This document shows positions 41,983 to 45,096 of a stretch of DNA of 64,000 bases, one piece after another. Source of the stretch: Alloyangia pacifica. Lineage in GTDB: Bacteria > Pseudomonadota > Alphaproteobacteria > Rhodobacterales > Rhodobacteraceae. The position numbers were made by a program, and so were the translations under genes. The stretch is taken from assembly GCF_020524285.1 (NCBI RefSeq), contig NZ_JAIVKX010000002.1, positions 186,001-250,000 on the forward strand. The letters are read 5' to 3'. Each line of letters opens with the position of its first letter. Position 1 is the first letter of the stretch. Below the pieces are notes generated by a model. It saw only the letters and a list, made by a program, of their open reading frames with translations. It did not search any database and had not been told where the DNA came from.

Positions 41983-42768
41983 CTACTCGGCGGCGCGGAC
42001 CGTGCCTGCGGTGGTCATCTGCAGCAGCCGTCCCGGTCCCTGCGCCCGCGCGCCCGCCAGCCGCGCCATGTGCCAAGCGAGCACCGTGTTGCTGGCCAGA
42101 ACGGGCAGGCCGATGGTCTCTTCCAGCGCCGCGATCACCGGCAGGGTGCGCAGGTTCGTGCAGGACAGGAAGAGCGCGTCCACAGGCTCCGGGCTCTCGG
42201 CGACCAGCTGCTGCCCGGCTACAAGGACAGAACCCGCCGAGATGCGGACCACCCGCGCTTCCTCCTCGATCAGGAAGCTGCCGAAGGTCGGGGTCTCGAT
42301 GCCCGCCGCCGCCAGCACCGCGCGCAGCCGGTCCGAGACCGGCGCGATGTAGGGCGAGAGCAGGGCGAGGCGGCGCAGGCCAAGCGCGGCACAGGCGGCG
42401 ATCAGCGCCGAGACCGGCTCGGTCACATGCGGGGCAGGGACCGCCTTGCGAATGCGCGCCGCGACCTCCGCCGCGCCGATCTGCGCGGTGCCCGAGGTGC
42501 AGCCATAGCCGACCGCGGCCAGCCGCGCGCCCCCCGGAAAGAGCGCCGCGGAGGCGGTCATGTAACCCTCCATCGCCGCCAGCGTGTCCGGCGTGACCTC
42601 GGCGCCCGAGGGGATGCGGCTGACCAGCAGCTCCAGCTCGGGCGGCAGCAGGCGGTGCAGGTCCGGCTCGATGGTCTCGTCCGATTGCAGCACGATCAGC
42701 CCGACCTGCGTCGGGCGCTGCGGCTCCAGGTCGTGCGGGAAGTGAACTCCGTTGTCCTGGCGCGTCAT
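41983..42768 (-). CDS. Asp/Glu racemase superfamily protein (maleate isomerase / arylmalonate decarboxylase-like)
   Basis: Cytoplasmic protein of 261 residues with two half-domains, each carrying a Cys at the expected active site: AVGYGCTSGTAQIG (about 98) and ALFLSCTNLRTLP (about 204). This pair of motifs is typical of maleate cis-trans isomerase, arylmalonate decarboxylase and the ectoine-utilisation protein EutA. Its start overlaps the upstream M24-family gene by four bases, so the two act together. The start is the ATG at 42768; the same frame runs on upstream but there only shadows the M24 gene. Confidence 0.84.
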   Translation of the reverse strand: MTRQDNGVHFPHDLEPQRPTQVGLIVLQSDETIEPDLHRLLPPELELLVSRIPSGAEVTPDTLAAMEGYMTASAALFPGGARLAAVGYGCTSGTAQIGAAEVAARIRKAVPAPHVTEPVSALIAACAALGLRRLALLSPYIAPVSDRLRAVLAAAGIETPTFGSFLIEEEARVVRISAGSVLVAGQQLVAESPEPVDALFLSCTNLRTLPVIAALEETIGLPVLASNTVLAWHMARLAGARAQGPGRLLQMTTAGTVRAAE

Positions 42769-43922
42769 GTCGGCAGCTCCGGCAGGTGGGTGGCGGGGGT
42801 TGTCAGCCACTCGGCGCCGCTCTCGCGGATCACGAGGTCTTCCTCGTGCACCAGCATCCGTCCGGCGCCGAGCGCGATCCCCGGCTCCAGCGTCAGCACC
42901 ATGCCCGGCTCGAGCAGCGTGTCGTCGGCGGGGATCAGCGAGGGCGGCTCGGTAAGTTGCATGCCGAGCCCATGGCCGAGCCGTCCGACCTCGGAGCCGC
43001 CGCAGATCGGCGCCATGGCGTGGAAGACATCGGCGGCCCGCGCGCCGGGCCTGGCGGCGGCAAAGCCCGCCTGCACCGCTTCGAGCAGCCGGGCGTGGGC
43101 GTCCAGCACCTCGGCTCCGGCGCGGCCGAGCGAGACATTCCGGTCGAAATCGCAGAAATAGCCGTCCAGCATCAGCCCGGTGTCGAGCATGAGCACGTCG
43201 CCCTCGCGCAGCGGGGCATCGGTTGCAGGGGAGATCACGTCGCCATAGCCACCGGGGCCGGCGGCGCCGGCGAGGTAGGGTACCCAATCCGCGCCCTCGT
43301 CGAGCGCCAGCATCTGGAAGCGGCGGAAGACCTGCGCCAGCGGCACGCCGGGGCGGGCGATCTCGGGCAGCCGGGCAAAGGCGCGGGTGCCGACGTCGCA
43401 GGCGGCGCGGATGCGGTCGATCTCGCCCTCGGATTTCACCATGCGCAGCGCCCGCAGGACGCCGCCGTCGGGGCCGAAGAGCCGGTCGTGCAGCCGGTGC
43501 TTCAGCGCCTCCCAGCTCGAGAGCGGCATGCGCAAGTGGGTCTCGTCGCCGCTCGGCACGCCGACCCATTCGCCGGGCGGCACCGCCTCGGCCAGCGCCT
43601 CGGCGAGCAGGGTGATGCCGTCGTCCTCGTAGTCCGGAGAGCGCCAGGTGCGGATATCGCGGATCCAGCACTGCGCCATGAGATGCGCGCCGATCGAGGG
43701 GATCACCGCCACCGGGTCGCCCTCGGCGGGCACCACGAGGAACCAGGGCCGTGTCGGGCTCTCCCAGAAGCGGGTGAGGAAGCCGGTGAAATAGCGGATC
43801 TCGGGCTCTGTGGTCAGCAGCAGCGCCGAGATGCCGGACATGGCCATGCGGGCCTGCGCCCGGGCCAGCCGGGCGCGGTACTCCGAGGGGCCGAAGCCAC
43901 GGGAAGGCGCGCGCATGTCCAT
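42765..43922 (-). CDS. M24-family (Xaa-Pro peptidase/creatinase-fold) hydrolase
   Basis: Pita-bread-fold metalloenzyme of 385 residues. The N-terminal creatinase-like domain has ISALLLTTEPEIRYFTGF. The C-terminal domain keeps the metal ligands: Asp in LMLDTGL, Asp in YFCDFDRN, His in GHGLGMQ, Glu in LTLEPGI and Glu in HEEDLVI. The second His of the peptidase motif (HExP) is replaced by Thr (LTEPP), so it may act on amide or amidine compounds rather than prolyl peptides. Coupling to the racemase-like gene supports a small-molecule catabolic role. Confidence 0.85.
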   Translation of the reverse strand: MDMRAPSRGFGPSEYRARLARAQARMAMSGISALLLTTEPEIRYFTGFLTRFWESPTRPWFLVVPAEGDPVAVIPSIGAHLMAQCWIRDIRTWRSPDYEDDGITLLAEALAEAVPPGEWVGVPSGDETHLRMPLSSWEALKHRLHDRLFGPDGGVLRALRMVKSEGEIDRIRAACDVGTRAFARLPEIARPGVPLAQVFRRFQMLALDEGADWVPYLAGAAGPGGYGDVISPATDAPLREGDVLMLDTGLMLDGYFCDFDRNVSLGRAGAEVLDAHARLLEAVQAGFAAARPGARAADVFHAMAPICGGSEVGRLGHGLGMQLTEPPSLIPADDTLLEPGMVLTLEPGIALGAGRMLVHEEDLVIRESGAEWLTTPATHLPELPT

Positions 43923-43970: not shown

Positions 43971-44633
43971 TCAGCCCTGCTGTGCCCGGAAATCGGCGAG
44001 GCTCTTGCCCGGTTCGTCCACGAACAGCCCGGGCAGGGGGGTGACGTCGGTCACCTGGTCGATGCGCAGGGTCTCGAAGCCGCGCGTGGTCTCGTTCCAG
44101 GTGATGCAGGTCCAGATGCGGCCCCAGTAGTCCATGTGCAGCGGCCGCAGGTCCTGCGGCGCGGCGCGGTCCTTCAGCGTCACCCGGAGCTTCTGCCGGG
44201 CGCGGATGGCGGCACGGAAATCGGGCATGAAGCGAAAGCCCTCGGCGGCCTCGCGGAACGGGTAGGTGGCAAAGCCGAAGGCGCCGCCGGGCGTGCCGTC
44301 CTCGGGCAGCAGCGCGTCGATCCGGGCCGAGAGCGCCTCGGCGGCCTCGGCGAGATCGGGCAGGCCGCCCTGTCCCACGGCGGCGAGGCCGAGATGCAGT
44401 GCCTCCAGTTCCAGCTCGCTGAGATTCAGCGGCGGCAGGGTGAAGGCGGCGCGGGCGGTGTAGCCGCGGCCGCGCTCGCCCTCGACCGGCACGCCGGAGG
44501 CGGCGAGCGTGTCCATGTCGCGGTAGATGGTGCGCACCGAGACGCCCAGTTCCTCGGCCAGCGCCTCGGCGGTGTGCAGCGATCCGTCCTTGAGACGGGT
44601 CATCAGGGCGTAGAGCCGGTCTGACTTCTTCAT
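43971..44633 (-). CDS. YafY-type transcriptional regulator (HTH_11 plus WYL)
   Basis: Regulator of 220 residues. The N-terminal winged helix ([37 protein letters not shown]) is the HTH_11 type. The WYL domain lies at about 130-200 ([20 protein letters not shown]). It ends with the usual C-terminal extension. Two tandem palindromic sites lie 59-93 bp upstream and suggest autoregulation. The ligand is unknown. Confidence 0.9.
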
Positions 44634-44691: not shown

Positions 44692-44726
44692 CTGACAGTT
44701 TATTGGCACCTGACAGAATACTGGCA
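44692..44726. promoter_or_regulatory. Tandem operator candidate for the WYL regulator
   Basis: Two 17-bp direct repeats, CTGACAGTTTATTGGCA (44692-44708) and CTGACAGAATACTGGCA (44710-44726), have an 18-bp period. Each is itself an imperfect palindrome, TGACAG-N4-YTGGCA. They lie between the WYL regulator gene and tatA. Confidence 0.6.
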
Positions 44727-44880
44727 AAAAGAGGAAAGAAAACCCCGTCCAGCGGGCCGGCTGGCCGGCTTTGCGCCTTCCGCGTCGCCGGCAGGGATCC
44801 TAAAACCCGGGTACAGATTTCGACGTGCCGCTTCGGGGACACCCGGCAAGGGTTGGAGCGGCCAAAGGGAGACTAAGGAC

Positions 44881-45096
44881 ATGCTCAACAATATCGGCCT
44901 TCCGGGCCTTCTTCTGATCGCCGTCGTGGTGCTGGTTCTGTTCGGCCGCGGCAAGATTTCCAGCCTCATGGGCGAAGTCGGCAAGGGCATCACCGCCTTC
45001 AAGAAGGGCGTGAGCGAAGGCGGCAAGGAGCTTGAGGACGAAAAGGCGGAAGAGGCCAAGGACGTGACGCCCGAGAGCGAGAAAGACAAGGTCTGA
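44881..45096 (+). CDS. tatA: Twin-arginine translocase subunit TatA
   Basis: Pore-forming subunit of the Tat exporter, 71 residues. One N-terminal span ([15 protein letters not shown]) is followed by the FGRGKI hinge, an amphipathic helix and an acidic tail. tatB begins four bases after its stop. The operon order tatA-tatB-tatC is standard. Confidence 0.95.

Follow-up and report, generated by a model that had tools for sequence, protein, structure and literature searches.

The window, the whole 64,000-nucleotide stretch analysed here, holds a minus-strand gene for a YafY-type regulator and a divergent tatA gene, and between them lie two near-palindromic sequences, CTGACAGTTTATTGGCA at 44692-44708 and CTGACAGAATACTGGCA at 44710-44726, separated by a single base. 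The tandem site ends 59 bp from the start of the regulator gene and 154 bp from the ATG of tatA. Each copy is an imperfect palindrome of the form TGACA-N6-TGGCA (general form TGNCA-N6-TGNCA), offset from the other by 18 bp; the copy at 44711-44726 matches its own reverse complement at 12 of 16 positions and the copy at 44693-44708 at 10 of 16. The arms in the window are degenerate, carrying TGGCA where the consensus of relatives has TGTCA. The letters of the window thus confirm the first-pass annotation in its placing of two near-palindromes, one base apart, upstream of a YafY-type gene. Of the two patterns it had written for them, TGACAG-N4-YTGGCA is right and CTGACAG-N5-YTGGCA is not, since the spacer reads N4. 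The features are as follows.

43971-44633, minus strand: YafY-type regulator, 220 aa, with HTH_11 and WYL domains
44693-44708, no strand assigned: candidate operator, copy 2, the nearer to the regulator gene, TGACAGTTTATTGGCA; minus-strand reading TGCCAATAAACTGTCA
44699-44727, minus strand: putative regulator promoter, TTGCCA-N17-AATAAA, 9/12 to the sigma-70 consensus
44711-44726, no strand assigned: candidate operator, copy 1, the farther from the regulator gene, TGACAGAATACTGGCA; minus-strand reading TGCCAGTATTCTGTCA
44881-45096, plus strand: tatA, divergent neighbour, considered as a target and judged less likely

The regulator carries both domains expected of its family, an N-terminal helix-turn-helix (HTH_11, 59.1 bits against a Pfam cut-off of 25) and a WYL domain (PF13280, 25.0 bits against 21.8), and is matched weakly, below the cut-off, by the PafC HTH model. 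Its AlphaFold model (pLDDT 78.6, pTM 0.51) retrieved 29 PDB chains with Foldseek at E <= 0.001, namely PafBC (top), DriD, BrxR and CapW, with low whole-chain TM-scores of 0.27-0.40. The Trp-Tyr-Leu triad is absent from the window protein, in which the corresponding stretch is probably W174-T-C, so membership of the WYL family rests on the domain and not on the triad letters. As to the ligand-binding arginines of WYL domains, R190 shows no variation across 36 chosen sequences, but the arginine expected three residues further on is a glutamine in the window protein and differs from one relative to another. The WCX extension, described in the SiwR report as found in most WYL regulators (PMC10693628), is absent from this 220-residue protein, whose model ends one helix past the WYL strands; the extension is not obligatory.

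On the same strand, a gene for an M24 peptidase with a Creatinase_N domain (42765-43922, minus strand) starts 48 bp past the regulator stop and may be co-transcribed with it; tblastn matched this gene at the same place in 5 of the 30 best homologue loci described below. We considered a link to ectoine and make no such claim, because the M24 gene reached 63 of 613 bits against DoeA/EutD and the next open reading frame 151 of 318 bits against EutA, both far below the NCBIfam cut-offs.

Recurrence of the motif upstream of YafY-type genes

One motif of this kind is no rarity in the window: the 64 kb contain two matches to TGNCA-N6-TGNCA where 0.62 are expected, and 16 of 100 shuffles yield as many. 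The pattern of the first-pass annotation, with one mismatch allowed, gives 8 matches against 5.3 expected. When the window was simulated 60 times with a first-order Markov model, the 18-bp tandem form never appeared. Because a single motif is unremarkable and window statistics are insufficient, the case rests on conservation in relatives.

We searched the regulator against 101 genomes, obtaining matches in 63, and examined the first 50 places for the motif. Every one of the 30 best loci (L001-L030; 50-100% identity; the window among them) has TGNCA-N6-TGNCA upstream of the regulator, and none of these loci holds a further match outside the regulator upstream. Among the next 20 places (35-55% identity, up to 800 bp upstream) the motif is present in 15 and absent from the stretch examined in 5, bearing out the recurrence before orthologous genes to which the first-pass annotation had looked. 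One locus (L048) has a variant with a 5-bp spacer, and no motif was found in the stretch examined at L036 (only 185 bp of upstream sequence), L040, L043 or L045, the last of which has a motif at -970 in a longer stretch (the same place as L089). The paralogue in the window's own genome (L031, 33% identity) has no motif anywhere in its 3,660-bp locus. A search of the class found the motif within 1 kb upstream in 25 of 29 loci (21 of the 24 new places), the other 4 lacking it in the stretch examined. A search of the phylum gave 22 of 27 loci with the motif, among them 7 of 11 from beyond the class, and 5 without it in the stretch examined. Stray matches outside the upstream stretch in the wider loci (for example L074, L082, L096, L135, L151, L152 and L157) mean that the background of the motif is not zero. 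The resulting consensus is TGACA-N6-TGTCA, in which the first five bases of each arm are conserved and the centre is variable; a literature search at the level of titles and some passages found no description of it.

A profile made from DNA sequence only (R1), using 53 of 57 sites and omitting three duplicates and one overlapping site at L042, pointed to the same class of genes. Over 100 family genomes (E <= 0.1), R1 matched 40 genomes at 46 distinct places, and 60 genomes had no match under filters that lose weak matches. At 45 of the 46 places a YafY-type gene or gene fragment follows the match, its start, as placed by alignment, being 18 to 501 bp away; 42 of these 45 were assigned from loci examined or the window, G051:C45 as L024, G047 as L035 and G040 by coordinates. 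Counting only places with no sequence in the profile, 30 of 31 are at a YafY-type gene or fragment, and some of these sites have the same sequence as ones in the training set. The remaining place is a held-out match (L162, G334:C9:134345) where a transporter-like gene begins, with no YafY gene in the 3-kb stretch examined; it is either a chance match or a remote target. In the genus, the best R1 match is the regulator's own site in 13 of 13 genomes, which also fed the profile. In the window's own genome (E <= 10, 150 of 643 candidates scored) copy 1 is the sole match and copy 2 was missed, so that this result is no proof against other targets.

Two further R1 matches were seen in genus genomes. 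One, at G001:C33:69601, has an E-value of 1.18; the other, at G010:C2:1330158-1330181, lies 8 bp before a second YafY homologue (32% identical, G010:C2:1330190), where cross-talk between paralogues is possible.

The doubled arrangement recurs at a fixed distance. Of the 30 best loci, 14 carry a second site at an offset of precisely +18 and 16 do not, and any other offset from +8 to +35 occurs in two loci at most; more 18-bp tandems are present at L073, L104, L111, L131, L132 and L166. Half-sites within one site start 11 bp apart, about one helical turn, as for a dimer. The 18-bp period given in the first-pass annotation therefore stands, but its placing of the two dimers on nearly the same face does not: 18 bp corresponds to 1.71 turns at 10.5 bp, which puts neighbouring dimers about 100 degrees apart and rules out the same-face arrangement by arithmetic. 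Among arm variants, five loci (L008, L018, L019, L021 and L025) have a TGTCA left arm, giving direct rather than inverted arms with spacing unchanged, and ten (L042, L082, L085, L118, L136, L137, L138, L143, L164 and L167) have a third half-site, TGNCA, 11 bp ahead of the palindrome, an array unlike the 18-bp tandem.

The site need not be close to the regulator start. At L025-L028 it lies 390-435 bp upstream, ahead of a small co-directional open reading frame followed by the regulator, indicating that it heads the transcription unit and is not tied to the start codon. Many wider loci also have a small co-directional frame between site and regulator. A Pfam scan covered nine such frames (7 of 15 from wider loci, plus 2 from the best loci): three passed the Glyoxalase cut-off (L077, L084 and L090), three had ABM matches below threshold (L025, L080 and L123) and three had no useful Pfam match (L028, L075 and L091). 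Several other intervening frames look VOC-like by eye alone. These comparisons suggest that VOC- or ABM-like frames (L075, L077, L080, L084, L090, L091, L093 and others) form a recurrent two-gene unit with the YafY gene.

A putative operator and its mode of action

With a probability of roughly 80%, we take the palindromes to be a putative operator at which the neighbouring YafY-type WYL regulator acts on its own gene, most likely in autorepression. The first-pass annotation had proposed tandem operators for a WYL regulator, and the homologue loci and profile places described above support that proposal. The regulator protein itself very probably binds the site. Its recognition-helix stretch is invariant at V31, S32, R34, T35, Y37, R38 and D39 in the 36 homologues, our selection from among the loci, an invariance that fits a common motif. 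In SiwR, the change of two HTH arginines (R38A-R42A) is reported to abolish promoter binding (PMC10693628), and DriD arginines are described as contacting conserved guanines of each half-site (PMC12340889); by analogy, R34 and R38 are candidates for this DNA-contact role.

A regulator dimer would read TGNCA-N6-TGNCA through the HTH recognition helix, with two dimers side by side, 18 bp apart, in the window. The bound regulator would occlude its own promoter, giving negative autoregulation, and a ligand at the WYL domain would relieve or change the repression. Autorepression is the likeliest mode because the best promoter-like match before the regulator runs across the site, its TTGCCA hexamer falling within copy 1 and its AATAAA hexamer within the spacer of copy 2. 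The promoter matches on the regulator side and the tatA side are partly forced, since TGACA resembles TTGACA, and the likeness of the half-site to a -35 hexamer weakens the promoter argument. We accordingly lean towards repression rather than activation with some reserve.

Activation is the less probable mode, though a real contender: a ligand-bound regulator might recruit or retune RNA polymerase at its own promoter. The relatives SiwR, PafBC and DriD are described as activators that act from comparable promoter positions, SiwR and PafBC from the -26 region (PMC10693628) and DriD straddling the -35 element (PMC12340889, a preprint), and the site here is placed correspondingly relative to the predicted hexamers. 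Against this, a full TTGACA stands at the predicted -35 in 12 of the 30 best loci, compared with the poor -35 matches reported at DriD-activated promoters (PMC12340889), and the promoter prediction here is weak. Inspection by eye downstream of the arms revealed no match to the PafBC-like promoter form, TGTCAGTG-N8-TANNNT.

Control of tatA (tatABC), an effect the first-pass annotation had raised, is improbable. At each of the 30 best loci tatA lies divergently beside the regulator and the site, and a consensus scan found a promoter-like match towards it, CTGACA-N16-CAGAAT, that overlaps the site. Yet in 19 genomes without an adjacent regulator match, the motif is in none of the tatA upstreams (about 400 bp), and in a twentieth genome (G041), where tatA lies beside a regulator fragment, the motif is present, indicating that it travels with the regulator. 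Where a regulator homologue is not next to tatA, the motif still accompanies it, as at L039, L044, L046 and L047, which have the site 447-457 bp upstream, and in the window the 154 bp between site and tatA contain a conserved block. The case for tatA is weakened accordingly, and it is the less likely target.

We give still less weight to the idea that another factor controlling YafY genes binds the palindromes, or that they form a leader RNA element. Binding by the YafY protein is itself deduced, and symmetric arms could pair in RNA; but the profile matches accompany YafY-type genes at 45 of 46 places while other neighbours vary, so an independent factor would have to track them all, and it is the sequence of the first five bases of each arm that is conserved while the centre changes.

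Breadth of the proposed operator code among WYL regulators

The proposed autoregulatory site can be set beside several known systems. SiwR of Mycobacterium smegmatis, as described in PMC10693628, is likewise a homodimeric HTH WYL regulator with a 19 bp imperfect palindrome overlapping the promoter beside its gene (compared here by description, not by letters), and some siwR neighbourhoods include glyoxalase-like genes; SiwR differs in being actinobacterial and in responding to genotoxic or oxidative stress by activating a divergent dinB-like operon. DriD of Caulobacter crescentus (PMC12340889) is an alphaproteobacterial WYL dimer that binds a pseudo-palindrome, and it is among the fold matches of our regulator model. 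Unlike the reading preferred here, it is described as an activator, switched on by ssDNA, with chains of about 325 residues compared with 220, and its consensus, ATACGAC-N7-GTCGTAT, is not matched by the window site. BrxR, another fold match, is reported to be a WYL repressor acting at inverted repeats near its own promoter, but with 11-bp repeats, a 5-bp spacer, about 290 residues and a role in defence islands (PMC9122601). PafBC, the top Foldseek match, also consists of WYL regulators, and differs in being a heterodimeric DNA-damage activator with a non-palindromic binding motif (PMC6789036).

The system is thus of a familiar type and the putative operator is new to it; the breadth of the operator's code exceeds what the first-pass annotation had proposed. 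On balance, and by a narrow margin, the sequence comparisons favour one operator code, (C)TGACA-N6-TGTCA(G), for a large YafY-type subfamily across Alphaproteobacteria and part of the other Pseudomonadota. In that subfamily the site would usually stand ahead of a lone regulator gene or of a pair made up of a small VOC/ABM-like gene and the regulator, and the tatA-linked lineage would lack the partner gene between site and regulator and often have the operator doubled at 18 bp. With a code common to the subfamily, YafY paralogues within one genome could cross-regulate.

WYL regulators of the YafY type are widespread, and most have yet to be characterised. An operator code in sequence form would allow their regulons to be predicted, would supply a probe for screening both binding and ligands, and would link many of the regulators with small genes, glyoxalase- or ABM-like, of unassigned role.
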